A stretch of 64,000 nucleotides of DNA, taken from positions 195,300 through 259,299 of the forward strand of contig JABHSE010000004.1 in NCBI GenBank assembly GCA_018697035.1, written 5' to 3'. A model generated the notes under the pieces. The model was given only the letters and a program-made list of their open reading frames with translations. It was not told the origin of the DNA and made no database searches. Positions within the stretch are counted from its first letter, which is position 1. Each line of letters starts with the position of its first letter. The position numbers and the translations under genes were made by a program. Source of the DNA: an archaeon. GTDB taxonomy: Archaea > Nanobdellota > Nanobdellia > Pacearchaeales > GW2011-AR1. This document shows, piece by piece, positions 28,068-61,303 of the stretch.

Positions 28068-28146
28068 GCCTGTATCGCATAATGGTATTGCACCGGACTA
28101 GAAACCCGGGCCCTTGGGCATCCCCGTTCGATTCGGGGTACAGGCG
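28068..28146 (+). tRNA. tRNA-Ser-like with anticodon AGA (possibly degenerate)
   Basis: Acceptor GCCTGTA/TACAGGC, T-arm CCCCG-TTCGATT-CGGGG, anticodon loop CTAGAAA, A31-C39 mismatch. Confidence 0.65.
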
Positions 28147-28282
28147 TTCTAGAATCGAATGGCTTGCCGTTTAAAGAAAATCTTATGATTTACTTTAGAA
28201 ATCTTCGATTTCGTGTCCGAGTTTTTCTAAAGCGAAGGCGATTTGCCCTTTAGGGTACTTGCGAAGCGTGGGGTACAGGCGT
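28135..28282. repeat. Structured insertion flanked by 13-bp direct repeats of tRNA 3' end
   Basis: GGGGTACAGGCGT at 28135-28147 and 28270-28282; internal core 28170-28238 matches 61174-61242. Confidence 0.85.
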
Positions 28283-40662: not shown

Positions 40663-40709
40663 AAAAACCAACCAAATCTTTAAAAACCAATTCTCCAATA
40701 TTCATTCAT

Positions 40710-40781
40710 GCCTCAATAGTATACTGGTTAGTACACGGCCCTGTCGCGGCCGAGATCCGGGTTCAATCCCCGGTTGGGGCG
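40710..40781 (+). tRNA. tRNA-Asp (GTC)
   Basis: Acceptor GCCTCAA/TTGGGGC, anticodon loop CTGTCGC, T-arm CCGGG-TTCAATC-CCCGG. Confidence 0.95.
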
Positions 40782-40829
40782 TAGTTAGGGCGTAGGTGGT
40801 TTTTTAAAGGCATTAGACGTGAGTATATT

Positions 40830-41987
40830 ATGAAACTAGACGTCCATGGGCACGAACAAAGATATAAACGTTGGAAAGAATATGTTCTGAAAGACGGTGA
40901 AGACCGATTATCTAAAAAAAATTCTGACACTTTATTAGCATTCATTTTTGATATGGAAGTTGGGGCCAACGTTTCTAGAAAAGCAAAGAAGGGTGGAAGA
41001 AGTTTTCCAAGGCTGAATAATATAAGACAAAGAATGATTCAAATGATGAGAGTGTTCGAAAAGAATGGATTAAATGATCTAACGAAATTAACGGAGAAAC
41101 AAGCGATGGATTATTTTAATGCACTGAGAACTGGCGAGATTAAAACAGCAAGGGGAGAGGTATACAAATCCGTTCAGGATTATGCAAAAGTTTTCAAATC
41201 CTTTTGGCATTGGTGGATGAAGTCACAAAGAAAAAAGGGAACAGCTATAATAGATATTACTGAGGATATAGATACCTCAAAAGACATGAAGCCTTCATTT
41301 GTTTATATGACTAAGAATCAACTCTACAATCAATATCTACCTTATTTTGAAGAAGATGAGCAGGTAATACTATCATTCGTTTTTGATAGTTTGATAAGAA
41401 GTCCAACCGAACTTCTAAGCCTGGAAGTCGGAGATTTGTTTGAGAAAGAGGGAGACCTTTGGGTTAATGTCCCAGATGAAATATCTAAGGTCAAAGGAAG
41501 GTTATTTAATTTGATGTATTGCGGAGAAGACGTAAAAAAATATATCGAAAGAAAAGGACTCAAGCCAAAAGATAAATTATTTGATTTTTCTCCAGAATAC
41601 TTCAATAGAAAAATGAAGAAAGTTGCCAAACAAATTTGGGGAGATTCAGTTTCTCATCCAAAAGCAGGAGGAAAATTCTCAGAAATTACATTATATTCCT
41701 TAAGACACTCTGGGAGCATTCATCTTAGAATGTTAGCGCAGGAACACCCTGAGGCCCTTAGTCTGGACACTCTGCGAGAGAGGGGCGGATGGAAGGACTT
41801 TAAGATGGTAAATTATTATACCGAGTTTATCGGACTAAGTGGAAAAATAGAGAAAGGGAAACTCTTGTTAAAAGAGGACAAAACAAGATTAGAAAAAGAG
41901 GTTGAAGAGTTAAAGGAAATGTTTGCAAGATTTCAAAGAGGTGAAGTTGTTTATGATACAGAAAAAGAGGAATACATTAAAAATTAA
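40830..41987 (+). CDS. Tyrosine recombinase / integrase
   Basis: Core-like SLIRSPTELLSLEVGDL, SLRHSGSIHL, ERGGWKDFKMVNYYTEF. Confidence 0.88.
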   Translation: MKLDVHGHEQRYKRWKEYVLKDGEDRLSKKNSDTLLAFIFDMEVGANVSRKAKKGGRSFPRLNNIRQRMIQMMRVFEKNGLNDLTKLTEKQAMDYFNALRTGEIKTARGEVYKSVQDYAKVFKSFWHWWMKSQRKKGTAIIDITEDIDTSKDMKPSFVYMTKNQLYNQYLPYFEEDEQVILSFVFDSLIRSPTELLSLEVGDLFEKEGDLWVNVPDEISKVKGRLFNLMYCGEDVKKYIERKGLKPKDKLFDFSPEYFNRKMKKVAKQIWGDSVSHPKAGGKFSEITLYSLRHSGSIHLRMLAQEHPEALSLDTLRERGGWKDFKMVNYYTEFIGLSGKIEKGKLLLKEDKTRLEKEVEELKEMFARFQRGEVVYDTEKEEYIKN

Positions 41988-42829
41988 TTAGATATAGCTT
42001 CAAGGAATACATTTTTTCTCATCTCCGATTTATTTACATTTAACATATTAACAGTGAACCAAAGACTTTTAAGATCCTTTTTACCCATTTTATTGATAAT
42101 TTTTAAATTTTTATTTGCAATTAAATTTTCAAATTGTCCAAATTTAAAATCTGATAAGGATAGTATTATATTTTGAATTAAAACATCAATTGTACTTATT
42201 TTAAGTCCTTCTTTTTCTAACCCCATATTGTAAGCAAGATAAAACTTTTTTACTAACACTCTACAGAGCGGAAGATTATTTCCAATTCTATGCTCCCAAT
42301 CTTTTTTATCTGTCAATACCAATCCATGAATCATCTCGGAGAATATATACTTGTAGAACTCTTTTTCTTTCAAATAATACTTCTTGGAATCTTTTAATCC
42401 TATTAACCCTTCCCCTTTTAATTGCCTAATTTCATTATTTTTTAAATTTGGTAAAAGATACTTCCTTTTTTTGTATGGAAGTTCAAATATATAATTTCTT
42501 TTACAAATTGTTATTAGTTTATTTTCTTTATCATATTTTAATAGCCTCTTTCCGCAATAAGAACAGCGTAATTCAGGAATTTTACATTCGTTGATTTTAT
42601 ATTTGAGAATACAATCCTTTTTAATATTTTGAGGGATATTTCTCTCTTTGGTAAAATTTTTTAATACCAACCCATAATTTCTGATATTATTCTCCATGCA
42701 ATATCTACACTTTATCAGAGTACAGTTTGTTTCAACTTTGTTTCTTGAATAAATTATCTCAGAAATTTCTAACAAAGTTCTTTCTTTTTCTAGCAATGAT
42801 AATAAAATTATATCTTTATTTTTGGTCAT
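41984..42829 (-). CDS. Hypothetical zinc-finger protein
   Basis: CTLIKCRYCMEN, ELRCSYCGKRL. Confidence 0.6.
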   Translation of the reverse strand: MTKNKDIILLSLLEKERTLLEISEIIYSRNKVETNCTLIKCRYCMENNIRNYGLVLKNFTKERNIPQNIKKDCILKYKINECKIPELRCSYCGKRLLKYDKENKLITICKRNYIFELPYKKRKYLLPNLKNNEIRQLKGEGLIGLKDSKKYYLKEKEFYKYIFSEMIHGLVLTDKKDWEHRIGNNLPLCRVLVKKFYLAYNMGLEKEGLKISTIDVLIQNIILSLSDFKFGQFENLIANKNLKIINKMGKKDLKSLWFTVNMLNVNKSEMRKNVFLEAISN

Positions 42830-42845
42830 TTTAACTTATATTTAC

Positions 42846-42880
42846 AAGCTATTTAAACCAGTAAGCGGTTAAATAACTTT
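42846..42880. promoter_or_regulatory. Imperfect inverted repeat in divergent promoter region
   Basis: AAGCTATTTAAACC-AGTAAGC-GGTTAAATAACTTT. Confidence 0.5.
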
Positions 42881-42895
42881 TGGTAATTATTAATA

Positions 42896-43081
42896 ATGGC
42901 AATACTGAGGACTATATCTATAAAAAAAGAATTAGACGAAAAAACGAAAAAACATTGCAGGGATACGGGGAAATCGATAAGTGGACTTATCTCTGTCCTC
43001 TTAATTAAATATTTTTCAGAAAATACCCAAGAAAAAGAATGTATCATAAATAATATTGAAATAAGGGATGAAGATGGTTGA
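42896..43081 (+). CDS. Small ribbon-helix-helix-like protein
   Basis: AILRTISIKKELDEKTKKHCRDTGKSISGLISVLLIKYF. Confidence 0.65.
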   Translation: MAILRTISIKKELDEKTKKHCRDTGKSISGLISVLLIKYFSENTQEKECIINNIEIRDEDG

Positions 43082-44021
43082 CAAGCAAAAAAAGTCAACT
43101 AAAAATGGTTTACATTCCCCCCATATTGATAAGCTTACAAAGACAGAAAAAGAAGTTCTCAGGTCTCTTACAGAAGATTTTTTAACACCAACACAAATAC
43201 GAATTAAGAGGGGCTGTAGTAGGCAAGCTGTCTACAAACACCTTAGATCTCTGAAGAAAAAAGGGGCTTATACCCCTGGTCTACAAAACACAGAAAAACC
43301 CATAGGGAGTCGTCAACCAAATGAGAAAGATGTCAACCAAGTAAGACTCCACGGGCAACAATTTCATATAAAAATAATACAACAGGAACCAAACGACCAG
43401 AAATATCAGAAATTATTGAAAAAATCAAACAAACTCTACATAGATGGACACACAATAAATCTATATCAGGATTCAATAGAAATCTATGCCGGAAGAGGAG
43501 CAAGTTTTTATGGGGCCGATGCGCAAGAGGCAGACAGAAAGGCATCTGAATACTGGCAAAAATTCTTCACAAGAATGGAGCACGAACTAAAGGTTATGCT
43601 AATAAAAGATAGGAGTAGAAATATCAAAGAAGTCAATCATCACTATGCAAGGGGAGAATCAGGGGTATGTGAGAACACATTAGAAAATGAAGGAAAACAT
43701 ATAAGAGTATTTTGCCCAAGAGATGGCAAATTAGCATTCATAACCGATGAGTCCTTCGGAGACAAAGAAGATGAAACAGTACATCCACTAACAGCAAAAC
43801 AAGATAGGGAAGCTATAGACAGGCATTTTAACGACTTGAGGCTGAACAATCCTCCAACAATCTCGGAGGTAATGAACTTGATGAAAGAGCATGTCGAATT
43901 AAACAAAGAGACTGCTGCGGGATTACTGGCAATTACGAACTATTTAACACCGCCCCTAGCCAAATTACAAAACAGAACTAAATCAAGCAATTTTCCTAAC
44001 AAATTAAGCTATATAATGTAG
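43068..44021 (+). CDS. HTH-containing element protein
   Basis: KLTKTEKEVLRSLTEDFLTPTQIRIKRGCSRQAVYKHLRSLKKKG. Confidence 0.75.
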   Translation: MKMVDKQKKSTKNGLHSPHIDKLTKTEKEVLRSLTEDFLTPTQIRIKRGCSRQAVYKHLRSLKKKGAYTPGLQNTEKPIGSRQPNEKDVNQVRLHGQQFHIKIIQQEPNDQKYQKLLKKSNKLYIDGHTINLYQDSIEIYAGRGASFYGADAQEADRKASEYWQKFFTRMEHELKVMLIKDRSRNIKEVNHHYARGESGVCENTLENEGKHIRVFCPRDGKLAFITDESFGDKEDETVHPLTAKQDREAIDRHFNDLRLNNPPTISEVMNLMKEHVELNKETAAGLLAITNYLTPPLAKLQNRTKSSNFPNKLSYIM

Positions 44022-44047
44022 TAAAAAATGGAAAACGTAAATACACA

Positions 44048-44284
44048 ATGTTAACTCCGACAAATAAAAGAAATATAAAAAACTTCGAGAATCTTAATGC
44101 AAACCATCAGAGAGTATTCAAGTGCAGATTAATAAAAAAATGTGGTGCATCATTTCAAGAAATAGAATTTGTTTTGAGAAATTATAAAAAATTAGGAATA
44201 AAAATAGAAAAAGTTGTGGACATAGTTCAATTAGCAACATTATTGGAATTATATTCAAAATTAAATTTGTTACAAAATATGTAA
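44048..44284 (+). CDS. Hypothetical protein
   Basis: Intact ORF. Confidence 0.5.
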   Translation: MLTPTNKRNIKNFENLNANHQRVFKCRLIKKCGASFQEIEFVLRNYKKLGIKIEKVVDIVQLATLLELYSKLNLLQNM

Positions 44285-44324
44285 ATAATTGAAAAACATA
44301 TTTGTAAAAATTACATAAGGGACA

Positions 44325-44945
44325 ATGAATAACTTACAAAAACCTCAAAAAAAAGAAAATGTAAAAGAAGAGAACTTAGATAGAGTATTTAATCCTGCAA
44401 AGTTTAGAACAACTTACTATAATGAATTTCCAGATTGGAAAGAGAAAAAAGATAAAGAGAAAAAAGAAACTGAAGAAAATTTATACAATGAAGTTATAAA
44501 AGGCTTAGAGTCTGATCTTAAAATGTTGGGAATGGAACCAACTTATTCTGCAAAAATAATTATTAGGGAAATTGCTCAAAATATGATTTTACTTGGAAGA
44601 ACCAAAGGACTAATTGTTTGCTCAGGGATATTAGAGACAAAATTTGAATTTAAAAAAACAAATACCTTTTATAGAACAAATTATGAATTTAAGAGAGATT
44701 CAAAAACAGAGATTTATGAGCAATTACATAATGGAAGAGAAGTAGACCCAGTTATTAGGGATTACCTTCCAAGACTACATAAAAATATCAACGAGGGATT
44801 GAAGCAACTTGCATTATTACCGATTCAGCAAATTGAAAGGCAAAAGTTAACAGTTATTAAAAAACTCAAACAAACCTGTGAATCAATTGAAAAAGAATAC
44901 ATTTTAAAAGCTGAAAAGAAAATTAACCAATTCGCCAAAGTTTAG
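44325..44945 (+). CDS. Hypothetical protein
   Basis: Intact ORF. Confidence 0.6.
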   Translation: MNNLQKPQKKENVKEENLDRVFNPAKFRTTYYNEFPDWKEKKDKEKKETEENLYNEVIKGLESDLKMLGMEPTYSAKIIIREIAQNMILLGRTKGLIVCSGILETKFEFKKTNTFYRTNYEFKRDSKTEIYEQLHNGREVDPVIRDYLPRLHKNINEGLKQLALLPIQQIERQKLTVIKKLKQTCESIEKEYILKAEKKINQFAKV

Positions 44946-45064
44946 ATATGTCTACACCCTTTTCTTTTGAAGTCACTTCTTCCTATTCTTCCATTCTCCG
45001 CACCCATTTTTAATGCCCAATACCTTACAGAATAAAGGAAACATTGCCTAATCAATAATTTTAA

Positions 45065-45622
45065 TTACACTCTCTTAAGCATCATATTCATAAACTTCTT
45101 CCCATCACCCGTATAAGAATAAGAGCTAGAAGTAGATTTCACATAAAGCACAACATTATTTCTGACACAAAATCCTTCTGCATAACCCGACAATGTATTA
45201 TCTCTTTCGATTCCAAAACAACCAATTCCAAGGCTCCATTCTTCAACGCCCCTAATGTCTATTTTAGTTTTTTCTTGCTCATAAAACTTATTAGAATTAT
45301 TAATAGAACTAAAACGGTAAACTCTCGCAACAACGACACTTCCTCCAAAAGTTTCAGATTTACTCATTTGTTTTTCTGATCCATCAAGAAATCCGGTAAA
45401 ATTGGAGTCTATGACTAAATCCTTAATTCTCCATTCTCTATCGACTTCTGAATCCTGAGGCACAATCGAGTGGGATTCTATTGAAATTAATTCTCCGTCC
45501 GAATAATCAGAATTTATATCCGAATCAGAAAGCATGCCTAATATAGTTAAAAATATGAAAAATCCAAGAATGCCCGTTAAGATCCAATGTCTTCTAAACC
45601 AAGATTTCTTCGCAGCTTTCAT
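45065..45622 (-). CDS. Membrane-anchored hypothetical protein
   Basis: N-terminal TM WILTGILGFFIFLTILGML. Confidence 0.6.
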   Translation of the reverse strand: MKAAKKSWFRRHWILTGILGFFIFLTILGMLSDSDINSDYSDGELISIESHSIVPQDSEVDREWRIKDLVIDSNFTGFLDGSEKQMSKSETFGGSVVVARVYRFSSINNSNKFYEQEKTKIDIRGVEEWSLGIGCFGIERDNTLSGYAEGFCVRNNVVLYVKSTSSSYSYTGDGKKFMNMMLKRV

Positions 45623-45654
45623 AAATTTATATGGGTTTCATCTTTTTTAAACAT

Positions 45655-45703
45655 TGTCTATCTGTTGTCAATCTTTCTATTAAATGTCTACTTGCTGTCT
45701 ATC
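45655..45703. repeat. Pair of 19-nt direct repeats upstream of winged-helix gene
   Basis: TGTCTATCTGTTGTCAATC and TGTCTACTTGCTGTCTATC, 30 bp apart. Confidence 0.65.
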
Positions 45704-45705
45704 TT

Positions 45706-45990
45706 ATGGAAAATCCAAAATTTTGGAAAACTTATTCTTGGGTAAATCTTGGTAGCCAAAGAAAGGAAGTAATGAAACTGTTGCCCGATAAACCGATTAC
45801 TGCAGAGGAATTAAGAAAGAAAATTAATGAAAAAGGCCCCCTTAATCTAAGCCTCCGGGAAATGTCGAGACACTTAACTTCATTTTTAGAACAAGGTCTC
45901 ACAGAATGCTTAAACCCAGAAGATCCATATAATAGGCTTTATATGATTACAAGTATGGGGAAAAAGATAAGAGATTCTTTCTTTGCATAA
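45706..45990 (+). CDS. Winged-helix-like small protein
   Basis: Start revised to MENPKFWKTY; LPDKPITAEELRKKINEKGPLNLSLREMSRHLTSFLEQGLTECL. Confidence 0.65.
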   Translation: MENPKFWKTYSWVNLGSQRKEVMKLLPDKPITAEELRKKINEKGPLNLSLREMSRHLTSFLEQGLTECLNPEDPYNRLYMITSMGKKIRDSFFA

Positions 45991-46020
45991 TTATAAAAAT
46001 ATAGTTATGAGTCTTTTAGT

Positions 46021-46242
46021 ATGACAAAAATTGGACTTGTAATCTTTGTTTTGTTTGTGGGAATCTTATTGGGGGGTATTTTGCAAGAATACGTTTGCCA
46101 TATAAATGAAACTGGAGAACTCGGAAGCGGAAAGCCAATGGTTGATTTGACATGTAAAATATTATCAATTCCTTTAGAATTGATTTTACTGATTTTCGCT
46201 ATTTCCGGAGCAATTATTTATTATATAAAAACAAAAGAATAA
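46021..46242 (+). CDS. Small membrane protein
   Basis: Two TM segments. Confidence 0.55.
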   Translation: MTKIGLVIFVLFVGILLGGILQEYVCHINETGELGSGKPMVDLTCKILSIPLELILLIFAISGAIIYYIKTKE

Positions 46243-46243
46243 A

Positions 46244-47704
46244 ATGAACCAAACAGAAGAAGTAAACAAAATTATAGAAGAAGAACTAAAGAGATTAGGG
46301 AAAGAACCAAAATTTTTAGAGAGATTAGAAGTCAAATCTATTTCAGAAATGGAAACTTATGCTAATGTATTATGGCATTCTTATGTCCAAATAAGTTCTT
46401 TAGAATATCAATATCCTGAACAAATAGAAATAATCAAAGAAAAATCTCTTGGCTTGCTTAATAAATATGCAGAAATAAACCAAAAAATAGGTGAATTGCT
46501 ATTGAAGCTAAAACCTGAATCTTTTAAACAGAATAATTATTTTAAAGATATGGCTGCTCAAAAATTTATAATTGCTGCTGGAAAATTATTTGATTTTTTA
46601 CAAAGTAAGGAAATAAAAAGTGACTGCTTGGTAGAAGAGAAAGATGGAATAAAGAGTTTTTGTTCAACAAAATCAGCATACCATAAGGTAAGGGAGCTTC
46701 TCAATAAGGCTGAATCTATATATGAGGATTTAGCTGTTTATTACACTTCAAAAAATAATTATAATATGGCCCATATTTATTATTACTTGGTTGGAGAATT
46801 ACTAATAAAAGAAATCGCTTATGGGAAAAAGATTAATGATTGGATGATGTATGATGATTTTGAGTTTGGCAACATTTTCTATTGGGCAGGGTTAGCTTTT
46901 ATGAAGTGTTATACATCTTTAAAAGATAAGTATATCTTAACAAGTCACGGTCCCCCTTCGGTATCCTTTATTAATTCTGCAATATCTGAAGTTTTTTCTT
47001 TAGGGAACCGAGGGCTAATGCCAGAACAGTTAGCAATAAAAAGTTTTGAAGCCGCTAAACCCTTTTTATTAAAGTCTGGGGAGAAAATCATTTATGCAAA
47101 GATTCAGGATTATCTATATGAATTAAAATCAGAATTAAACGATTTTGAAAAAAATGTTATAGAACTTTTTATTAAGATCTCAAGAGAATTTCTGAAAAAA
47201 GAAAATATAGTAATTAGGAAGACTGCAGGAAGACTGCAGGAAGAAGATGTTAGAGATTATTTTCTTTCTTGTCTCAATGTCGTTATAGAAGAAATTGCAG
47301 TAGCCGAAAGTCTGAAATGCAGAGGAGAAACAGACCTAATTTTATTTGGTAAGGATAATTTTAGAAATAATTTAGAAGGTATTTCTGAGTTTAAGGTATG
47401 GCCAAGAAATAAGTATAAGGAGATTATAAAACAAATAAAATCTTATCTAACCGATTTTGAATCTTTTGGAATTATAGTTATGATAAATGAGGGGGAAAGC
47501 TCTATCAACGAGAAATATAAAAAAGAAATTATTGATAAAGATGAATTGATAGTTCCAAACTCATTCGAAAAACTTAACTTTGGAGGAACCGGCTTTGAAT
47601 ATTTTAAAACAAAAAGTTTTTTAGATAAAAGTAAGACAAAAGAAATTTCAATCTATCACATTATACTGAATATTTTTTCATCAATTAAAAAAGACAATCC
47701 TTAA
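46244..47704 (+). CDS. Large protein with putative C-terminal PD-(D/E)XK nuclease-like domain
   Basis: EEDVRDYFLSCLN...GETDLILFG...ISEFKVWPRNKYKEIIKQIKSYL. Confidence 0.6.
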   Translation: MNQTEEVNKIIEEELKRLGKEPKFLERLEVKSISEMETYANVLWHSYVQISSLEYQYPEQIEIIKEKSLGLLNKYAEINQKIGELLLKLKPESFKQNNYFKDMAAQKFIIAAGKLFDFLQSKEIKSDCLVEEKDGIKSFCSTKSAYHKVRELLNKAESIYEDLAVYYTSKNNYNMAHIYYYLVGELLIKEIAYGKKINDWMMYDDFEFGNIFYWAGLAFMKCYTSLKDKYILTSHGPPSVSFINSAISEVFSLGNRGLMPEQLAIKSFEAAKPFLLKSGEKIIYAKIQDYLYELKSELNDFEKNVIELFIKISREFLKKENIVIRKTAGRLQEEDVRDYFLSCLNVVIEEIAVAESLKCRGETDLILFGKDNFRNNLEGISEFKVWPRNKYKEIIKQIKSYLTDFESFGIIVMINEGESSINEKYKKEIIDKDELIVPNSFEKLNFGGTGFEYFKTKSFLDKSKTKEISIYHIILNIFSSIKKDNP

Positions 47705-47818
47705 TTATCATGAGCTCCATTGGTTAGGAGGTTGACAAAAGCAAGTAACAAGGAGTATCTTAAAAATAGTTTACTTAAAAACAATTAATCATAAAAACTT
47801 CCTATTTGTCTTATTTCC

Positions 47819-49288
47819 ATGCTACTAACAAAATCAAATTATCTCCTAGGCCTGCAATGCCCAAAATTACTCTGGGTTGCAAAGAATGATAAGCAAAGAA
47901 TGCCCGAGCCAGATAATTCTGCGAAACATAATTTTATGATGGGAGATATTATTGGAGTTTTAGCCACAAAAGCCTTTCCTGGAGGAATCGACCTTGCAGA
48001 TTTAGGTTTTATGGAAAATATTAGTAAAACGAAAAAGGCGATTAAAGATAGAGAAACGATTTATGAAGCAGGAATTATGGTCAATAACTTATTCTCTAGA
48101 GCAGATGTTTTATTGCCAGTTGGAGAGAATGAATGGGATATTATTGAAGTTAAGAGCGCGACAAAAGTCAAAGACATAAATATTCATGACGTTTCTTTCC
48201 AGAAGTATACCTATGAAAAAGCCGGACTTAAAATTAGAAAATGTTTTTTGATGCATATTAATAATGAGTATATTAAGGACGGGGAGATTGAGCCAGGGGA
48301 GTTGTTTGTACAGACTGATATTACTGAGAAAGTTGATGAGTATACCGAGGGAATTGAGGAGAGAATTGAAAACATGTTTAAGATTATTCGGGCTAAAAAG
48401 GAAAAAGATACACCTATTGGCATACAGTGCTCAGAGCCATATAAGTGTGCCTTGAAAGGTGAATGCTGGAAGAATGTTCCAGAAGGGAGCGTATTCGAGT
48501 TTTATTATATGCTTAAGAATAAATGTTTTGAGCTTTACAATGAAGGAATTATTCGTCTGAAGGATGTTCCAGAAGATGTTAAGCTGAATAGTAATCAGCA
48601 GGTACAAAGAAGGCTTGCATTTGATGGCGGAAAGCATGTAGATAAACTACAAATCAAGAATTTTCTTCGGAACTTGAAATATCCAATTTATTATTTAGAT
48701 TTTGAAACTATTGCGCCTGCGATCCCTAAATTTAATGGGATGAAGCCATATCAGAGGATTCCATTTCAATTCTCATTACATACCCAAAGTAAGACTGGAA
48801 AAATTAAGCATATTTCTTTTTTAGCTGATGGCACGAGCGATCCTCGACCGAAGTTTATGCAGGCTCTTAGAGACAATTTAAAGAAGCGTGGGAGCATTTT
48901 AGTTTACAATCAAGGGTTTGAGAAGGGAATTATGAATGAGTCAGCCGTGGCCTTACCAGAGTTTAAAGGCTGGTATAAAGATAATATTGAGCCGAGAGTA
49001 AAAGACCTCTTAGATGTCTTTAGAGATTTTTCTTATTACGATCCCAAACAAAAAGGTTCCGCTTCGATAAAGGCGGTGTTACCAGTTATGTCTGATTTGA
49101 AATATAGTGATTTAGAAATTAGCGAGGGAATGTTCGCAAGTAATGAATACGAAAGGGTTACTTATGGGGATGTTGAGAACTCGGAAAGATTAAGAGTAAG
49201 GGAAGACTTGGAAAAGTATTGCGAGCTGGATACATTGGCTGAGGTTGAAATTATAAAAAGATTAAAAGAAATAATTACCAATTCTTAA
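47819..49288 (+). CDS. DUF2779-type RecB-like nuclease
   Basis: MLLTKSNYLLGLQCPKLLW; IIEVKSATKV; YYLDFETIAPAIPKFNGMKPYQRIPFQFSLH. Confidence 0.85.
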   Translation: MLLTKSNYLLGLQCPKLLWVAKNDKQRMPEPDNSAKHNFMMGDIIGVLATKAFPGGIDLADLGFMENISKTKKAIKDRETIYEAGIMVNNLFSRADVLLPVGENEWDIIEVKSATKVKDINIHDVSFQKYTYEKAGLKIRKCFLMHINNEYIKDGEIEPGELFVQTDITEKVDEYTEGIEERIENMFKIIRAKKEKDTPIGIQCSEPYKCALKGECWKNVPEGSVFEFYYMLKNKCFELYNEGIIRLKDVPEDVKLNSNQQVQRRLAFDGGKHVDKLQIKNFLRNLKYPIYYLDFETIAPAIPKFNGMKPYQRIPFQFSLHTQSKTGKIKHISFLADGTSDPRPKFMQALRDNLKKRGSILVYNQGFEKGIMNESAVALPEFKGWYKDNIEPRVKDLLDVFRDFSYYDPKQKGSASIKAVLPVMSDLKYSDLEISEGMFASNEYERVTYGDVENSERLRVREDLEKYCELDTLAEVEIIKRLKEIITNS

Positions 49289-49378
49289 AACCATATAGAC
49301 TTCTAAGACTTGTCGTAAAAAATTAATGAATTGCCCTTTGACCACTAAATCTATAAAGTTCTTAACTTATTTATAAAA

Positions 49379-50119
49379 ATGGAATATCGTGGATTCGCTG
49401 ACGATTTAAACGAAACAGTAAGTAGTTATAATGGAGAACACAAAGAATTAATCAAACATTTGCCTGCTCTCTTTGACCTTTTATGCAAAATTTTATATGA
49501 TAACAGGTCTAGTTGGAGTACGAGGATAATAGTTTCTTCGGTTTTAGGATATTTTGTACTTCCTGAAGATGTTATTCCTGATTATGAAGAAGAAACCGGC
49601 TATTTGGACGATTTATTTATTGTCACTTTTGCTCTTAAACAAATTGAACTTTCTTCAGACTACGATTTAATAAAAAATAACTGGAATGAAAGTTCGGATA
49701 TAGGCAAAATAATAGAAAAAACCTATAACTCTTGCCAGGATTTATTGGGAGGGCTTTCAGAAGAGGTTTTAGGGATGGTTGGGCTGAGAAGGTATTTATC
49801 AGTAGAAAGAGAATACAATAATTTGAGTCATTCTACCAAAATGAGAAAAATAATGGATGAAAAAATAGAGCTAATAGGACTTTTATCATTTGTCACCGCG
49901 AAACTCTATAATACGCCAAGGACAAGGTCGGTTGAGGAATTGATAGAGTTTATTCAGAAACACGAAGACTACGGAGAAATAGAAAGAATAATTCAATTAG
50001 TTAGAGAAAAAACCATATCCAAGACAATTAACGAATTACCCAAAGACACTCTCTCTCTTGAAAGAAAACTTAGGAGAAAAAGAATTAAAAAATTATTATC
50101 TCAATCCAATGTCACTTAA
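49379..50119 (+). CDS. DUF1232 (YkvA-like) protein
   Basis: TRIIVSSVLGYFVLPEDVIPDYEEETGYLDDLFIVTFAL. Confidence 0.8.
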   Translation: MEYRGFADDLNETVSSYNGEHKELIKHLPALFDLLCKILYDNRSSWSTRIIVSSVLGYFVLPEDVIPDYEEETGYLDDLFIVTFALKQIELSSDYDLIKNNWNESSDIGKIIEKTYNSCQDLLGGLSEEVLGMVGLRRYLSVEREYNNLSHSTKMRKIMDEKIELIGLLSFVTAKLYNTPRTRSVEELIEFIQKHEDYGEIERIIQLVREKTISKTINELPKDTLSLERKLRRKRIKKLLSQSNVT

Positions 50120-52121
50120 TGATATTAATCTAAAAAACACTTATGACTCTGACGAGGATAATATTCTCAAAGACTTCTATATCCCCACCTTAAAAGAATC
50201 TATCTTATACAAAAGAATAGCATCTTATTACAGCTCCTCAAGCTTAGTAGTTGCCTCTGAAGGAATTACTAGCCTAATCGGCAAAAGAGGAAAAATGAAG
50301 TTGCTAATAAATGTCGGACTTAGTAAAGAGGACTATGAGGCGATAAGGGAGGGGATTGAAAATCCTGAAAAAATAATTTCGGCTTTAATGATAAAAGACA
50401 TAGAGGAACTCAGAGAGCAAATAAAAATAAATCACCTAAAAGTTCTTTCATGGTTAATAGCTATGGGAAAGGTAGAAATAAAAGTTGCTATTATAAAGGA
50501 AAATGCTAAAGGAATTTTGCATCAAAAAGTTGGACTTTTATATGATGAACTAGGAAGCAAAATTTCATTTAGTGGATCTGAAAATGAGACTGCAAATGGA
50601 TTCATTCATAATATAGAAGAATTTAAAGTTTTTAGAGGATGGATTGAAGATGAAAGAAAATATTTAATTGAAGATGAAAGAAAGTTTGAAAAATTTTGGT
50701 CTGGTGAGGGGAATCGAGTTAAAACAATATCGCTTCCAGAAGCTGTTGAAAAAAAACTAATAGAAATTCGGCCAAAAGATAAAATAGAATTGAACAAGAT
50801 TATCGATGAACTAGAAAAGGGCATTTCTAAGAAAAAGCTAAGACCCTACCAAAAGGAAGCTATTGATTGCTGGATGGAAAATGGGAAGACTGGCGTACTA
50901 GAAATGGCAACTGGAAGCGGGAAAACATTTACTTCTATATCAATAATAAAAGAACTTTCAAAAGAAACTAAGCCATTTCTAGTAGTTATTGCTTGCCCCT
51001 TTCAACACTTAGTTACTCAGTGGACCAAGGAACTGGAAGATCAAGGAATAAGTTCTGTCAAAGCATTTGGGAATAGAAAGTCTTGGGTTGACAAAGTTGC
51101 AGATAAGGTCTCCAATTTAAACAGGGGCTATGAAAACTTACTAGTTTTAGTTACAACATACGACACGTCTTCAAAAGGATATTTTCTAGAATTAATAAAA
51201 AAATTTAATCAAAATTCCCTATATATTGGAGATGAAGTACATTATGTAGGGGCAGAATCACGAAGAAAGGGATTGTTGGAAGAATATTCATTTCGCCTTG
51301 GATTAAGTGCAACTCCTTCCAGGTGGATGGATGACGAAGGAACAAAAATAATCAATGATTATTTTGGGAAAACTGTTTTTGAATTTGGTCTAGAAGAAGC
51401 GATAGCAATGAAATTTTTAACTCCCTATAAATATTATCCTCATATAAGTCACCTCTCAGATGAAGAAATGCAAGAATATGAGGCATTTGCGCCAAGGATT
51501 GCCAGATTGATGCAGGGAGACAGTAAAGAGAATAATGAAAGACTCTCTCTCTTATTAATACAGAGACAAAAAATAATAACTAATGCAATTGCAAAATATG
51601 ACATATTAGAAGAAATTATTCAAAAAGAGGAAATGGATAAAACTTTAATCTATTGTTCAGATAAACAAATCATAGAAGTTCCAAAATATCTTTCAAAAAA
51701 GAACACAATTTTTCACAGGTTTACCTCAAAAGAAAAGAATAAAGAAAGAAAGAAAATTTTAGAAAATTTTGAGAAGGGTGTATATCAGGTTTTACTAGCA
51801 ATAAAATGTTTAGATGAAGGAGTAGATGTGCCTTCAACAAAGACCGCAATAATTATGGCAAGTAGTGGAAATCCTAGGGAATATATTCAGCGAAGAGGAA
51901 GGATATTGAGGACACACCCATCAAAAAATTTTTCTGTTATCCATGATATTATAGTCCTACCCCCAAAAGGTTATTTTTATAAATACGCCTCATCTGATAT
52001 GGATAAGAAAATGTTAAAAAAAGAACTTAAAAGATATATGGAATTTTCAAACTCTTCAATGAATCCCATATCTTCAACAAAAAAGGTAATCTCCATAATG
52101 GAAGATTATGGATTAATGTAA
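50109..52121 (+). CDS. PLD-domain plus SF2 helicase fusion
   Basis: HQKVGLLYDELGSKISFSGSENETANG; GSGKTFTS, GDEVHYVGA, LSATPSRW, QRRGRILR; start revised to MSLNDINL. Confidence 0.9.
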   Translation: MSLNDINLKNTYDSDEDNILKDFYIPTLKESILYKRIASYYSSSSLVVASEGITSLIGKRGKMKLLINVGLSKEDYEAIREGIENPEKIISALMIKDIEELREQIKINHLKVLSWLIAMGKVEIKVAIIKENAKGILHQKVGLLYDELGSKISFSGSENETANGFIHNIEEFKVFRGWIEDERKYLIEDERKFEKFWSGEGNRVKTISLPEAVEKKLIEIRPKDKIELNKIIDELEKGISKKKLRPYQKEAIDCWMENGKTGVLEMATGSGKTFTSISIIKELSKETKPFLVVIACPFQHLVTQWTKELEDQGISSVKAFGNRKSWVDKVADKVSNLNRGYENLLVLVTTYDTSSKGYFLELIKKFNQNSLYIGDEVHYVGAESRRKGLLEEYSFRLGLSATPSRWMDDEGTKIINDYFGKTVFEFGLEEAIAMKFLTPYKYYPHISHLSDEEMQEYEAFAPRIARLMQGDSKENNERLSLLLIQRQKIITNAIAKYDILEEIIQKEEMDKTLIYCSDKQIIEVPKYLSKKNTIFHRFTSKEKNKERKKILENFEKGVYQVLLAIKCLDEGVDVPSTKTAIIMASSGNPREYIQRRGRILRTHPSKNFSVIHDIIVLPPKGYFYKYASSDMDKKMLKKELKRYMEFSNSSMNPISSTKKVISIMEDYGLM

Positions 52122-52122
52122 A

Positions 52123-52314
52123 ATGGTAAAAAACGAAATTAACAAACTAATTTTAGAAAAGCTAAACAAAGCCAAATGCGAAAACAAAGTAAAGGAATTG
52201 ATAAAAAATTTATTAGAATTTGAGAGAGATTCTTTAAACGAAGATGTTATGCGATACACTGATCAATATAAAAATTTCGTAGAACATTATGCCAGGAGGG
52301 TTGACAAAAAATGA
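52123..52314 (+). CDS. Small helical protein of operon
   Basis: 63-codon ORF tightly packed between neighbours (1-nt gap, ATGA overlap). Confidence 0.6.
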   Translation: MVKNEINKLILEKLNKAKCENKVKELIKNLLEFERDSLNEDVMRYTDQYKNFVEHYARRVDKK

Positions 52315-54287
52315 AATTTATAAGCTTAGAAATGGAAAATTTTAGACAATATTATTCAAAACAGAAAATTGACTTTTCAATAAAACCTAAGAAAAATTTC
52401 ACTATAATCTCTGGAGCAAATGGATGCGGCAAAACGAATCTATTGGGTGCAATAAACTGGTGTTTTTATAACGACGAAGGAGTAGAAAATGGCAAATACA
52501 AAGAGACAAAAAAATTAGAAGTCCTTAATGAAAAAGTTCTGGACGACATGAAGATAGGTGAGAAAAAAAATGTTTCAATTAAAATATTTTTAGGGGAAGG
52601 CCAAACAACTGATTTTGTTATAGAAAGGAAAAAAACATTCAAAAAAACAGACACTGGACGCCTAGCCTTGGTTGATGAAGATTTTAAAATTCTTAAAAAA
52701 ACCTCAGGAGGTTTTGAAGAAGAGGACAATAAGCAAATATTAATTAAACAAATACTCCCAAAAGAAATTAGAAGCTTTTTCTTTTTTGATGGAGAAAAAT
52801 TAGACTCCTTTTTTAAGATTGGTAGTGGAACTAATATCAAAAAAGCAATTTTTGATGTATCCCAAATAGAGTTAATTAATAATACAATAAGTCACACGCA
52901 AAGGGTATCAAGAGAGATAGAAAAGGGTGTTGACGATGTTAATCCAAAGATAAAAGAAAAATCAGAAGAAAAAAGTAGCTTTATGGAGAAAAAAGAAGAT
53001 TTAGAAAAGCAAAAAAAAGAACACGAGGCTTCTATAGAAAATACTGAAAAAGATATTCTACAGATAGATAATTTTTTAAGAAAATTTGGAAGATCGGATG
53101 TAAGTTCTTTACAAAAAGAAAGAGATAGATTAAAGGAAGAGGCAAAAAGTATTCAAGACAGGGAGGGAGAGATAAAATCAAAGATTACAGAAGTAGTTAT
53201 TGACAACTATCCTTCATCTATACTCTCGGGGGTTATAGAAAATACAATTAATGAAGTAGAAAAACTAGACAAACAAAAGAAATTACCTCCAGAGATTGAC
53301 CCAAAATATTTAGAAAAGATATTAAAATTAAACAAATGTATTTGCGGAAGATGCGTAGACAAAAAATCTAAAGAATTTAAATTAATAGATTCTTTAATAG
53401 ATAGAAATAGTTTCGGAGAAAATGCATCTTTATTAATCGAAGGGAGAGGCATATTAAATAGGGATTCGGAAAGAAAAGAAGATGACATCAAGAAATTAGA
53501 TGAACTTAATAAAGAATTTTTGCGACTTGAAGAGAGATATAAGCAAGTCGGAAATCGTAATAAGGAAATTAATTTGGCACTAGAAGGTCTAGACGAAGAA
53601 GAAATATCACAAAAAGAAACAAAAAGAAACATGTTACACATGGCACTGATAAAAGAGGAATCATATTTGGCCGTTTGCAAAAATGATATAAAAAATTTAG
53701 ACGAAGAAATTGGAGATCTTGCAAAAGAACTAGATGACTTATGGAAGAAATCTAATGAGTCAAATGAAGTAGTGAGTCAGATTAGATTATTGAACGAATC
53801 TTCGGATGTCTTAAATAAAATATTAAATGAAATAGTTGAAGAAGTTAGAAACACAATCCAAATAAAAACTGAAGAGTATTTTTTCTCTATGATTTGGAAT
53901 AAAGAGAGTTTTGAAAAAGTTAGAATAGATGACAACTACAATTTATCAGTTATAAATAGCTACGGAAACGAATGCTTACATTCCTTATCGTCAGGACAGA
54001 GACAAGTACTAGCACTTTCATTTATGGCCGCATTAAAAGAAGTCTCTGGATTTGATGCCCCTGTTGTAATAGATACCCCACTAGGAAGAATATCTGGAGA
54101 ACCAAGAGATAATATAGCCAAGAACCTACCAGAATATCTAAAAGGAACACAGGTAACTCTTTTGGTAACTGATACAGAATATACAACTTCATTTAAAGAA
54201 AAAATAAAAGAGCGTACAGAATTAGAATATCAAATTAAACTAAATAAGAAGACAGGCACTTCTAGCATAGAAAAATATGAGAGATGA
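52311..54287 (+). CDS. SMC/Rad50-like ATPase, DndD-like
   Basis: MENFRQY, GANGCGKTNLLGAINWCFY, FFFFDGEKLD, CICGRC hook, LSSGQRQVLALSFMAAL, DTPLGRIS. Confidence 0.87.
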   Translation: MKFISLEMENFRQYYSKQKIDFSIKPKKNFTIISGANGCGKTNLLGAINWCFYNDEGVENGKYKETKKLEVLNEKVLDDMKIGEKKNVSIKIFLGEGQTTDFVIERKKTFKKTDTGRLALVDEDFKILKKTSGGFEEEDNKQILIKQILPKEIRSFFFFDGEKLDSFFKIGSGTNIKKAIFDVSQIELINNTISHTQRVSREIEKGVDDVNPKIKEKSEEKSSFMEKKEDLEKQKKEHEASIENTEKDILQIDNFLRKFGRSDVSSLQKERDRLKEEAKSIQDREGEIKSKITEVVIDNYPSSILSGVIENTINEVEKLDKQKKLPPEIDPKYLEKILKLNKCICGRCVDKKSKEFKLIDSLIDRNSFGENASLLIEGRGILNRDSERKEDDIKKLDELNKEFLRLEERYKQVGNRNKEINLALEGLDEEEISQKETKRNMLHMALIKEESYLAVCKNDIKNLDEEIGDLAKELDDLWKKSNESNEVVSQIRLLNESSDVLNKILNEIVEEVRNTIQIKTEEYFFSMIWNKESFEKVRIDDNYNLSVINSYGNECLHSLSSGQRQVLALSFMAALKEVSGFDAPVVIDTPLGRISGEPRDNIAKNLPEYLKGTQVTLLVTDTEYTTSFKEKIKERTELEYQIKLNKKTGTSSIEKYER

Positions 54288-54681
54288 ATTAAAAGAAAGA
54301 TTTCCTAGAAATTACAACATAGAGAAAAAATATCAAAAAGATTATAATGACCTTAAGAAGAAAAATATTTTATTTAAAGACAGGACTTTCAATGATATTT
54401 TTATGATTTCTCTTGCTTTGGGATTTAAGAATAAATGTCCAAAAAACCTCAAAAGTCCCTACCCTGTTGTAAATTGCAATGCATTTGATGTCAAATCTAC
54501 ATGGATAATTGCATCTCTTGCCATTAAAGAAAAGGGAATAGGCGTCTTGAGTGACATGGTAGAAATACGTAAAACTGCTGAAAAATATGCGAATGGGGGA
54601 TTCGAAATTTTAAAGAAAAAACTTAGCTCGGACGACCCAGGGAGTATAATAAAAAGATTTGAAGAAGAACTTTTAGATTAA
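54277..54681 (+). CDS. Small protein, possibly like Dnd-associated protein 4
   Basis: FKDRTFNDIFMISLALGFKNKCP; 11-nt overlap with ATPase gene. Confidence 0.5.
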   Translation: MRDELKERFPRNYNIEKKYQKDYNDLKKKNILFKDRTFNDIFMISLALGFKNKCPKNLKSPYPVVNCNAFDVKSTWIIASLAIKEKGIGVLSDMVEIRKTAEKYANGGFEILKKKLSSDDPGSIIKRFEEELLD

Positions 54682-54682
54682 A

Positions 54683-56308
54683 CTATTTCATCAAAGACAC
54701 TATAAGACTGCAGGAATATATTGCTGCTCCAATTCTTAATGGCATGGAGCCATTACCTATAGAAAATCCCTTCTTTCGGTGTTTTAAATCCTCAAAATCT
54801 TTTCTTTCAGGATAATGGTTATCTATCAGTTCTTTTAGTTCAGCTAAAAGATTATATGGCCCGACCGATGAGGAGTTTAAAATATAATCATTCTGTAATT
54901 TATGATGAGACAAGCCGAGCTCCTTAGCAAGTTTCCTCAAATCTCTATCAAAACTCCTAAACCCTGGGGCATTATAAAATAATCTCCTGGCATCAGAAAA
55001 ATTTAAAATAATATTTTTTGCATCTTTGCCAGTACCATGATGCAAAACCCCCTTCCATTTAATTATTCCTTTATCAAAATTTGAATCTCTATTATCTATA
55101 CTTACACGATAATTTCTAATTTTCAAATAAGGTATATGGAAATCAAATATGGCATCTCTTTTTCTATTTTTAATTGTTTTTTTCTTTCTTTTGGCGCCAT
55201 TTAAATTAATTTTGGAGATAATCTTATCATTTGACTTTCTTTTTCCATAAATTTTATTTTCCTTTTTTAATATAGCCCTAGCCAAGGCGAAAGAAAGTTT
55301 TGGACAAACTGCATTCCCAACCAAACGATATTTAACAGCTTCACTACCGCCCTCAAATTGATAGGTTATAGGAAATGACATGAAGCATGCGGCTTCCCTT
55401 ACTGTTGGCACCCTGTATCCATTTTTATTTGAATTTGAGTTGAATGAATAAAAGATTAGGGACTCCCTAGTAGAGGCGGACATAGTTGCCATAACAGTCC
55501 TACTCGGATTATCAATATTTTCAGGAAAAGACATTTTCCCCATATATCCATGATCCAACTTTAATCTCTTTGCCTTTTGCCACTCAAAATTCATCACCCT
55601 AGTGTCATAGAAATGGTCAGTCAAATATTTTGACTTAATCTTTACCCCATATAGTGGATCAGTTATGTTTTTATCTTTATATTCTAAGGGATTTCCAAGA
55701 GAAGAAAATATGTTTTTTATAGAAATGTATTTTTTATTATCTATAATTTTTTTTGGTGCTGGAAAATCCCCGCAAATAAATCTCTTTCTAATCTGGGGAG
55801 CACCAAAATCAGCAGAATTTAGTATATCTCTAATTCGGATTTGTAACTCAGGACCCTTTCCAGGGAGACCCAATTCGGTCCAAGAGTAAGAATTTTTCGT
55901 ATATTTATTTGAATTTGGAACATTCTCCATAACCCAATATTTTAACACACCTTTCTTTTTCTTCCATGCAACAATTCTAAGAAAAGCTTTAATCAGCTCC
56001 AGACCCTTTGTTTTATCTGCCTTCCCAGATTTATTCGAATTTGAGAAAGATATACACGGAGGACTTCCAATTATAATTTCCGTATCTGGCACTACTTCAT
56101 CAATTTTTTGAGGAGTATCTAATTCAAGAATATTTATCAATTTAGAATCACAGTTTGGATGATTTAAGTGGTGTGTTTCAATAGCAGGAAGCCAATTGTC
56201 TAATGCAAAGACAACATCAAATCCTTCTTGGCTAAATCCCTCTGAAAAACCCCCGGCACCGCAAAAAAAATCTGCCACTCCCATCCTTTTCATATTCTCA
56301 TTAAACAA
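54683..56308 (-). CDS. C5-cytosine DNA methyltransferase
   Basis: DFFCGAGGFSEGFSQEGF, GSPPCISFSNSNKSG, WVMENVPNS, RLVGNAVCPKLSFALA. Confidence 0.95.
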   Translation of the reverse strand: MFNENMKRMGVADFFCGAGGFSEGFSQEGFDVVFALDNWLPAIETHHLNHPNCDSKLINILELDTPQKIDEVVPDTEIIIGSPPCISFSNSNKSGKADKTKGLELIKAFLRIVAWKKKKGVLKYWVMENVPNSNKYTKNSYSWTELGLPGKGPELQIRIRDILNSADFGAPQIRKRFICGDFPAPKKIIDNKKYISIKNIFSSLGNPLEYKDKNITDPLYGVKIKSKYLTDHFYDTRVMNFEWQKAKRLKLDHGYMGKMSFPENIDNPSRTVMATMSASTRESLIFYSFNSNSNKNGYRVPTVREAACFMSFPITYQFEGGSEAVKYRLVGNAVCPKLSFALARAILKKENKIYGKRKSNDKIISKINLNGAKRKKKTIKNRKRDAIFDFHIPYLKIRNYRVSIDNRDSNFDKGIIKWKGVLHHGTGKDAKNIILNFSDARRLFYNAPGFRSFDRDLRKLAKELGLSHHKLQNDYILNSSSVGPYNLLAELKELIDNHYPERKDFEDLKHRKKGFSIGNGSMPLRIGAAIYSCSLIVSLMK

Positions 56309-56489
56309 CTCAGGCTTTTAAATCTTATGATCTTTATAATAATAATTTTATTAAATTCATTCAAAATCATTTCCCTGACTTTTAATCTAAAATCTCCAAT
56401 ATAGATGCTCAGAATAAAGATATAATCTACTTCGATTAAGTATTTAGTCTTATGATTTGAAATTCAATGAATACCTATGTAGCATTAAT

Positions 56490-57086
56490 TTATCTTAAAA
56501 ATCTAACTTCGGGACATTTAAATTTTAAATTTTCTATTTTTTCCTTGATTGGTATAATCTTCCAGTCATTTTTATCAAGAGTAAAAGCTATTAATTCATT
56601 TTCTTGATGCTCTTGAATCGCAGAAGAGATTATTTTTGCATCAGCTTTATTTTTATTTTCCTTGGTTATTAAGCTCACAAGAGTTGGATCTATTTTTTCT
56701 ATGGGTATTACTTTTTTTGAAATTCTTGTTTGAATAAATTCATTAATTTTTTTTCTTATAAGCAAAATTTCTCTTTGTTTTTCTATTAATCCATCTTCTG
56801 TTTCAAGTCCACTTGCTATTTGATGCCTTAACTTTTTTAATATAATTTTTTCTTTATCTGTAAATATTGAATAATCAGTAATATGACTTCTATTCTTTGA
56901 GAATTTTATAGCTTCCATAAAAAATCTTTGTTTTCTTAGAAATAATTTTGGTATTTCTTCTTTTTCTTGATATATAGATATTAAGAAATCATCTTGATTC
57001 TCTAAAAAAATACAAACTTCCTCATAATGGGCATCCCTAGTATCAAATGCTGTAAAAAGTATGCAAGTATCTAGAAAATCTTTCAT
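56490..57086 (-). CDS. PIN-domain-like protein
   Basis: KDFLDTCILFTAFDTRDAHYEEV...NKADAKIISSAIQEHQENELIAFTLDKNDW. Confidence 0.7.
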   Translation of the reverse strand: MKDFLDTCILFTAFDTRDAHYEEVCIFLENQDDFLISIYQEKEEIPKLFLRKQRFFMEAIKFSKNRSHITDYSIFTDKEKIILKKLRHQIASGLETEDGLIEKQREILLIRKKINEFIQTRISKKVIPIEKIDPTLVSLITKENKNKADAKIISSAIQEHQENELIAFTLDKNDWKIIPIKEKIENLKFKCPEVRFLR

Positions 57087-57087
57087 T

Positions 57088-58110
57088 TTAAGAATTTAAC
57101 AATTCATGTATTAAATCTGAAGTTTCTGAACCTGAATCTATTTTTAGTAAATTTATTTCACTTTCTATATCATCTAAAACCCTTGACACTTGTGTTTTTT
57201 TTGTATTCATATAATTAATTTTTATTTGATTAAACAATTCTATTTTTTCTTCAACAACGGCCTTTTTCGCATCTTGAAAAAAAGCTTCTGTGGTTATTAA
57301 ATCCCAGAAGAGAGAGAATATCTCCTTAAGCCTTGTCAGATATATTTCTGCTTCTTCGGACTGAGAGATTGAGACGGTATTGGCACAATAGACTATCCTA
57401 TCAAAGAGTGTAAAGCTTTCCATTAATTCTGTTGGATAAGATGCCATCATGTTAAATAATTCTCTGGATAGAGTCTCTTTGTCTTTAAGACAAAAATAAT
57501 TCATTACTTCTTCTTTGTCCTTATAAAATTTCATTGAATCTTTTTCATATTGTTTTAATCTTGCTTTATTTGCAGTAAGAGTTTTATATTTGTCAATAAG
57601 TTCGAGTAAATTATTCATTTGTTCCGTATTTACTTTAAACTCATTAGACCCTACCACCTCTTCATATCTCAACAATAAAGTCTGTCCATAATGGAATCTT
57701 GCTATGGGAACTTTATTTTCTAAGTTGTTATTTTCTACAAATTCTACTGCAAGTTTTTGTAAGACGGTTCTTTGAAGGGGTTCATTTACACGTTCTTTCC
57801 ATATTTTATTTATTGTATACAATAGGGAAGTGGTCTCTTCTCTTATCTCTTCTCTCAGTGGTAAATAAAAAAATGATAGATCTTCTTTGCTGGCATAAAT
57901 CTTAGATTTCGTAGCTGATATTAATTCTATAATTTTATCTTCATTGATTAATTCATTTAGAAATTTTTCTATAGTTAGCCAATTAGAATTAATATCTTCA
58001 GAGATTTCATGAGCATTTTTAGGACCGCTATTCAAGTTGTTTAGAATATCTTCTTTTATCTGCTCTGGTGTTTTTTTTACTCTAGTCTTACTATCCATTA
58101 TAAAAAACAC
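57088..58110 (-). CDS. Winged-helix-like partner of PIN protein
   Basis: QIKEDILNNLNSGPKNAHEISEDINSNWLTIEKFLNELINEDKI. Confidence 0.65.
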   Translation of the reverse strand: MFFIMDSKTRVKKTPEQIKEDILNNLNSGPKNAHEISEDINSNWLTIEKFLNELINEDKIIELISATKSKIYASKEDLSFFYLPLREEIREETTSLLYTINKIWKERVNEPLQRTVLQKLAVEFVENNNLENKVPIARFHYGQTLLLRYEEVVGSNEFKVNTEQMNNLLELIDKYKTLTANKARLKQYEKDSMKFYKDKEEVMNYFCLKDKETLSRELFNMMASYPTELMESFTLFDRIVYCANTVSISQSEEAEIYLTRLKEIFSLFWDLITTEAFFQDAKKAVVEEKIELFNQIKINYMNTKKTQVSRVLDDIESEINLLKIDSGSETSDLIHELLNS

Positions 58111-58203
58111 CTCTCATAATATTATCTTGAAAAACATATTTATAAACTTTTGCTTAAACAATGTAATGAATAGCACATCATCATATAACGAAAGCTTTAT
58201 AAG

Positions 58204-58712: not shown

Positions 58713-58866
58713 ATTTATTAAACTTCCCTATTGCTCTCAATTGGAACAGAATTTAACTTTATCAACGACAGAACATACGCACCAATGAACTCCGGTTGGG
58801 GCGTGGTACCATTGTGGCACATTGTATTCTCAACCAAAAAATAATACCAACATCCCTTCTAATGTC

Positions 58867-60951: not shown

Positions 60952-61056
60952 TCCCTATTTATTTAATTTTCTATATAACCAAAACCTACAAGCTCCTAAT
61001 ATATATGATATATACCAAACAAACTTTTTTAAAACCTAAAATCAACAATCTTTTAT

Positions 61057-61128
61057 GCGTGGGTAGTATAGTGGTTATTATTCGACGTTGCCAACGTTGG
61101 GGCCCGGGTTCGATCCCCGGCCCGCGCA
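61057..61128 (+). tRNA. tRNA-Gly (GCC)
   Basis: GCGTGGG/CCCGCGC acceptor, CGACG-TTGCCAA-CGTTG. Confidence 0.95.
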
Positions 61129-61163
61129 TTTATTTTTTATACTTCTTTTAATACATGCTTCAT

Positions 61164-61302
61164 GCTTGGGTAGTTTAAAGGAAATCTTTGATTTTCTTTA
61201 GGGAACTTTAGTTCCCGTGTCCGAGCTTTTCTAAAGCGACGGTAGTGGTTAGAATCTGTCGTTGCCAACGATGGGACCGGGGTTCGAGCCCCCGCCCGCG
61301 CA
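61164..61302 (+). tRNA. Second tRNA-Gly (GCC) interrupted in D-arm by ~67-nt insertion
   Basis: GCTTGGGTAGT[insertion]TAGTGGTTAGAATCTGTCGTTGCCAACGATGGGACCGGGGTTCGAGCCCCCGCCCGCGCA; GGTAGT repeated at 61169 and 61241. Confidence 0.85.
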
Positions 61303-61303
61303 T

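Follow-up and report, generated by a model that had tools for sequence, protein, structure and literature searches.

A 67-nucleotide folded unit at archaeal tRNA genes that appears to represent an undescribed family of miniature mobile elements

The window (the whole stretch of DNA analysed, 64,000 nucleotides; G000:C3:195300-259299) belongs to an 809-kb draft Pacearchaeota genome, G000, and contains two copies of a 67-nt structured unit, termed family A, each positioned at a tRNA gene (Table 1). At the first of these, the tRNA-Ser gene and both of the 13-bp GGGGTACAGGCGT repeats are present as originally described, and the core of the unit could be aligned with the insert at tRNA-Gly, including the compensatory changes claimed for hairpin 2. 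The original prediction had treated positions 28135–28282 as a single element; this interval is structured and repeat-flanked, but the structured unit proper is shorter, and the repeats enclose a larger 122-nt insert composed of an antisense copy of the T-arm, the 67-nt unit, and a second structured tail. The Ser copy by itself folds only weakly (RNA z, −1.2), so that its structure rests on the alignment with other copies. A tRNA-Ser with the predicted anticodon AGA occurs in two species, in the window and at locus L047 of genome G008; A34 is unusual for archaea.

The second window copy had been described as an insert at tRNA-Gly, and it is found there, but not simply behind a tRNA: it splits the D-arm of a second tRNA-Gly(GCC) gene that is complete in all other respects. 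Omitting 61176–61242 in silico converted a stretch without a tRNA call into a complete tRNA-Gly(GCC), indicating that the unit was inserted into the D-arm without a target duplication. That a full tRNA results from the removal of a clean insertion is also what would favor a different reading, namely that the unit has a function as RNA, intron-like or other, being either excised from precursors or acting as a tRNA-linked small RNA, and is kept by selection. Elsewhere in the window, an 18-kb integrated element (40709–58804) is located at tRNA-Asp, with a tyrosine recombinase at 40830–41987 and a 13-bp repeat at its far end (CCGGTTGGGGCGT; 58792–58804). From a look at the sequence, a DNA cytosine methyltransferase, an SMC-like ATPase, and a protein resembling helicases are part of its cargo. 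The 67-nt unit is absent from this element.

Table 1. Features at the two family A loci of the window, and positions of family B inserts in G000.
Feature	Position	Strand	Basis or remark
tRNA-Ser, intact, predicted anticodon AGA, host of the insertion at its 3' end	28068..28146	+	ARAGORN; Rfam RF00005, 47.7 bits
Duplicated tRNA-Ser 3' end, first copy, GGGGTACAGGCGT	28135..28147	+	tRNA 3' end plus one base
Antisense copy of the tRNA-Ser T-arm, GAATCGAATGG versus CCGTTCGATTC	28152..28162	+	inverted repeat; permutation result for own-tRNA antisense matches in text
Family A unit, 67 nt	28172..28238	+	covariance model, 87 bits, E 6e-18; pair counts on 40 copies
Hairpin P1 of the unit	28172..28197	+	
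Hairpin P2 of the unit	28198..28212	+	followed by linker GTGT
P4/P3 of the unit (CC-GA-stem-GA-A-GG)	28217..28238	+	
Second structured insert tail, CGATTTGCCCTTTAGGGTACTTGCGAAGCGT	28239..28269	+	resembles, by eye, an insert standing alone after tRNA-Val in sister genome G003
Duplicated tRNA-Ser 3' end, second copy, GGGGTACAGGCGT	28270..28282	+	
tRNA-Gly(GCC), intact, upstream of the interrupted copy	61056..61129	+	ARAGORN
Second tRNA-Gly(GCC), 5' part, broken in the D-arm	61163..61175	+	ARAGORN: 74-nt tRNA-Gly only once the unit is omitted in silico
Family A unit, 67 nt, no target duplication (GTT^TAG)	61176..61242	+	covariance model, 81.8 bits, E 1e-16
Second tRNA-Gly(GCC), 3' part	61243..61303	+	flank joining in silico
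Family B inserts in G000	C3:32437, 43275, 353032; C4:8504, 16805, 19577; C1:19894, 73306		also in G003, G008, G009, G011

The likeness of the two window copies is not random: a pattern derived from them matched six genomic sites at ≤3 mismatches, compared to none for a reversed-pattern control, and a covariance model built from six copies identified 10 copies in G000 (E ≤ 1e-6), including both window copies and all six used to build it. Extending this search to related genomes, as the original prediction had proposed, revealed further tRNA-associated copies in five of the 15 other genomes of the genus (G008, G010, G002, G011, and G012), such that family A occupies 6 of 16 genomes with about 40 copies in total. 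Across 378 genomes of the class, no genus but this one yielded family A (one of 247 genera at E ≤ 1e-4), and no viral contig matched the core pattern. In a collection of named genomes, the pattern had many matches in one organism only, Ca. Pacearchaeota RIFOXYB2_FULL_43_25; seven matches in other organisms had no tRNA nearby, were at chance level, and were set aside. No Rfam family reached threshold on the units at gathering or relaxed thresholds, with only tRNA and 5S of note. Based on these sequence searches, family A is probably restricted to one genus.

Across 40 aligned copies, standard pairs occupied 97.6% of pair cells, so that the stems are maintained in further copies as predicted, and two-sided changes occurred at 19 of 21 pairs; these values derive from an alignment that was fitted to the model, and is hence biased towards structure, and that mixes orthologous and paralogous copies. 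None of 500 shuffles reached any of the covariation measures, and slid structures scored far lower. Hairpin 3, read directly, maintains the same pairing through the stem variants GCTTC/GAAGC, GTGTC/GACAC, GTGAC/GTCAC, and GCTTG/CAAGC. Taken as a comparison of sequences, a fold of three hairpins (P1, P2, and P3/P4) is strongly supported. G-U cells far exceed A-C cells (33 vs 7), indicating that the unit strand is the folded strand; strong covariation and G-U tolerance on one strand are properties that would also suit a functional RNA. As P1 begins at the first nucleotide of the unit and a CC/GG helix closes at the last, the structural and insertional boundaries coincide. The end motif, CC-GA-stem-GA-A-GG with tandem G.A pairs, looks K-turn-like. 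All of the genomes are incomplete draft MAGs (copy-bearing genomes 69–87% complete, tool estimate), which might suggest an artefact of assembly or chance, but this is hardly credible for units recovered from separate assemblies of several species, at different tRNAs, with covariation beyond all shuffles and none in outgroups.

Almost all family A copies (39 of 40) are located at tRNA genes, at a median distance of 27 bp, and the sole copy unrelated to a tRNA (L060) is the weakest match (27.5 bits); the tRNA targeting predicted from two copies thus holds well past them, for 10 copies in the genome and about 40 in the genus. Most copies lie downstream of an intact tRNA. Insertion of the unit without a target-site duplication was seen both at tRNA-Gly and nested in an element at the second tRNA-Cys, where the element is uninterrupted in G008 (CGCTTTGAG) and a unit sits between CTT and TGA in G000. 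Joining the flanks gave GGTT^CRA, corresponding to T55^C56 of the T-loop, for the majority of the remaining tRNA-strand copies. Tandem units are arranged head to tail with no repeats between them. The idea that the unit itself generates a 19-bp target duplication had been considered and was dropped after the clean unit insertions were seen. Of the tRNA-associated copies, 31 are on the tRNA strand, a bias that would suit a functional RNA, but the remaining eight are antisense to the tRNA and still keep the fold, and splicing is unneeded where the unit follows an intact tRNA. No bulge-helix-bulge (BHB) motif was recognized at TT^UAAAG...GAAGG^CGA, as judged by eye. One tRNA in G000 (L009; C3:183473-183644) has a long internal insert, and after this tRNA come family A and a repeat of the tRNA 3' end spanning 17 bp; the tRNA is called Ser-TGA by ARAGORN, while the sequence suggests Ile-TAT.

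Repeats of the tRNA 3' end (≥11 bp; range, 11–24 bp) were identified for 18 of 37 tRNAs in G000, 11 of 29 in G008, 8 of 27 in G003, and 5 of 27 in G009, counting tRNAs with enough sequence, compared to 0.6–1.2% in a mismatched-pair control in which tRNA ends were set against the downstream regions of other tRNAs. Two outgroup genomes had no such duplications (0/28 and 0/28). The unit itself mostly lies inside the second copy of the tRNA end. Of the earlier proposal of insertion or recombination at a tRNA 3' end, the duplication of that end is supported, but the reading of the repeats as att-site scars is wrong, as one unit occurs at many tRNAs, each duplicating its own 3' end, and enters T-loops and D-arms without target duplication and in both orientations. 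Scars left at tRNA genes by tyrosine-recombinase integrations that have since decayed would be in keeping with the integrases found in every genome tested and with the repeat-bounded element at tRNA-Asp in the window, but are a very improbable source of a unit that inserts without duplication and in both orientations: an att site of the phage type carries a tRNA 3' end of its own, so that one element family cannot leave perfect duplications of >20 different tRNA 3' ends.

Inserts tend to start with sequence antisense to the T-arm of their own tRNA (54 inserts; mean longest match, 7.0 nt, compared to 5.5 nt for the arms of other tRNAs), a result that 0 of 2000 permutations equaled. Where the arrangement is clearest, the T-arm is present as sense, antisense, and sense copies, with the unit within the last copy, as for the antisense GGATTTGAACCC that precedes a second T-arm on G002:C9. 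A palindrome test of the joined flanks was only moderate (11/39, compared to 10.9% for the control), and no landing pads without any unit were found. A layout specific to the local tRNA is what a passive origin would produce. In that scenario, stalling of replication at a tRNA gene would let the nascent strand change template at the T-arm, which is palindromic, and structured units of RNA or single-stranded DNA that happened to be present would be captured with no dedicated recombinase involved. Other duplications were observed at tRNA genes of the genus. In G009, repeats of the tRNA 5' end occur at nine tRNAs, some accounted for by adjacent tRNAs, and in mirror-image cases (L145, L148, L157, and L158 in G009; L015 in G000) 11–15 bp of the tRNA 5' end are duplicated upstream, around short D-loop inserts. 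Downstream of a tRNA-Met in G003 (L135), a 69-bp tandem array contains three copies of the tRNA 3' end spaced by an identical 49-nt insert.

Occupancy of the same tRNA genes differs between species. At tRNA-Lys(TTT), G008 and G003 run from the tRNA end straight into the sequence that is found after two inserts in G000. tRNA-Arg(TCT) is empty in G003, has family A in G000 and G008, family A in reverse in G010, and another family in G009. One and the same partial tRNA copy at tRNA-Leu(TAA) is occupied by family B in G000 and by family A in G008 and G010, while at tRNA-Thr(TGT) a family B insert is common to G000 and G003, with G008 and G009 empty. The search for empty sites proposed with the original prediction was answered in sister species by empty sites, at least one of them clear, or by other families at the same tRNA. 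Compared at the sequence level, such a mixture of shared and independent occupancy is the pattern that mobile elements would leave. A patchy presence, with different families at a given tRNA among sister species, is awkward for a functional RNA kept by selection, a reading that is distinctly unlikely.

Family B (CGAACAATTYGCT...AGAGTGAATTGTGAGTA) has a long hairpin with some paired changes and, within this genus, is inserted in the T-loops of tRNA copies that are partial; this family and the smaller insert families were described by eye and from one alignment. A third, small family (L093 and L094 in G000; L024 in G010) is on the strand opposite to the tRNA and has a GCGAAGG end in common with family A. 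The several unrelated unit families share the same layout at tRNA landing sites, which again would suit a passive origin.

Searches for an enzyme acting on the unit returned no candidate that tracked family A among the searched genomes. The Y1 transposase (PF01797) is absent from G000 and G008, which have the most copies (genomes 80–84% complete), and is present in some copy-free genomes; among the genus genomes searched, Cas1 (PF01867) occurs only in G009, and so in neither G000 nor G008, and reverse transcriptase (RT; PF00078) in none. Two XerA-like groups of recombinases were considered as helpers and rejected, with no adjoining tRNA and no match to copy number. Given the incompleteness of the copy-bearing genomes, the absence of a helper is weak evidence. 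That no helper gene was found would be expected of a passive origin, but constant unit ends, an insertion point that is fixed at T55^C56 in many copies, tandems running head to tail, and one fold over 40 copies point to a specific process, and a passive origin is rather unlikely.

Compared to known systems, the unit can be set beside IS200/IS605-type elements and the REP/REPIN sequences moved by Y1 (HUH) transposases, which are likewise short, have hairpins, are read as a folded single strand, leave no target duplication, and include non-autonomous copies moved in trans (e.g. PMC6006769, PMC3116915). In these elements, subterminal hairpins are recognized as a single strand; the 67-nt unit has three covarying hairpins on one strand, and differs in targeting tRNA T-loops and D-arms, in having three hairpins, and in the absence of a Y1 gene from the two copy-richest genomes. 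Casposons (Cas1 casposase) likewise occur in archaea and are able to insert at tRNA 3' ends, where direct repeats result (PMC4046053, PMC6977970), with target duplications of about 14–15 bp, compared to repeats of 11–24 bp here with the unit inside the second copy. Further differences are the lack of Cas1 in G000 and G008, the insertion of the unit with no duplication, and its size of 67 nt, compared to kilobases; terminal inverted repeats were not seen. Tyrosine-recombinase elements of the SSV and pNOB8 type have tRNA genes as target and a repeated tRNA 3' fragment in common with the present inserts, but here the repeats track the 3' end of whichever tRNA was hit, rather than a fixed attP replacing it, the inserts (about 45–250 bp) leave no room for an integrase gene, and both orientations occur. 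The lack of RT in the genus genomes searched offers nothing for a group II intron or other retroelement. Disrupted tRNAs and tRNA introns of archaea, as modeled by Sugahara et al. 2012 (PMC3293823), also entail precise interruption, with fragments of tRNAs that mobile DNA leaves behind, but here the same folded unit is found at many tRNAs, usually beside an intact one, and no BHB was recognized. Group I introns have been reported in Pacearchaeota in rRNA genes (PMC6125680). The R-box (GTTRRRY) and RYYYAAC of integron attC ends were not seen at the unit ends by eye. Rickettsia palindromic elements and similar small palindromic repeats are short structured repeats that invade genes, RNA genes included, and differ from the 67-nt unit in sequence, fold, and host domain, the unit having a strict placement in T-loops and D-arms. 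As explanations, tyrosine-integrase scars, casposons, retroelements, and ordinary introns fit poorly, and no description of such elements was found in the literature.

Overall, the reading that we favor, with a probability of roughly 0.55, is that the 67-nt unit represents a mobile micro-element, non-autonomous and directed at tRNA genes, which inserts precisely and is read as a folded single strand. We infer its mobility from comparison between genomes; most copies are diverged and no transposition has been observed, points that stand against this reading. In the proposed mechanism, the unit would be recognized as a folded single strand in which P1, P2, and P3/P4 together use the first and last nucleotide, and would enter, precisely and with no duplication of the target, either the T-loop between T55 and C56 or the D-arm. 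Recognition of a single strand fits best, as the fold is kept even antisense to the tRNA. Most surviving insertions are located within a second, partial copy of the tRNA end, often after an antisense copy of the T-arm, so that the host keeps one intact tRNA. The sense-antisense-sense layout may reflect snap-back or template-switch synthesis during insertion, and a helper protein would act in trans. Family A probably moves as a folded single strand at the tRNA gene with the aid of a putative helper.

The wider proposal, that family A constitutes a novel class of minimal mobile genetic elements, in which a folded nucleic acid of 67 nt, recognized by its fold, invades tRNA T-loops and D-arms with sense-antisense-sense target duplication, beside several unrelated micro-element families using the same sites in one archaeal genus, is tentative and falls somewhat short of even odds. 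About half of the tRNA genes in this one reduced archaeal genome have 3'-end duplications around short structured inserts, making the process a major force on the tRNA loci of G000. Should the unit be mobile, its 67 nt would place it with the smallest elements for which a fold and a target are defined. The exact boundaries and covarying fold provide direct substrates for finding the enzyme and, if the unit is mobile, the interruption, duplication, and splitting of tRNA genes in archaea would become testable.
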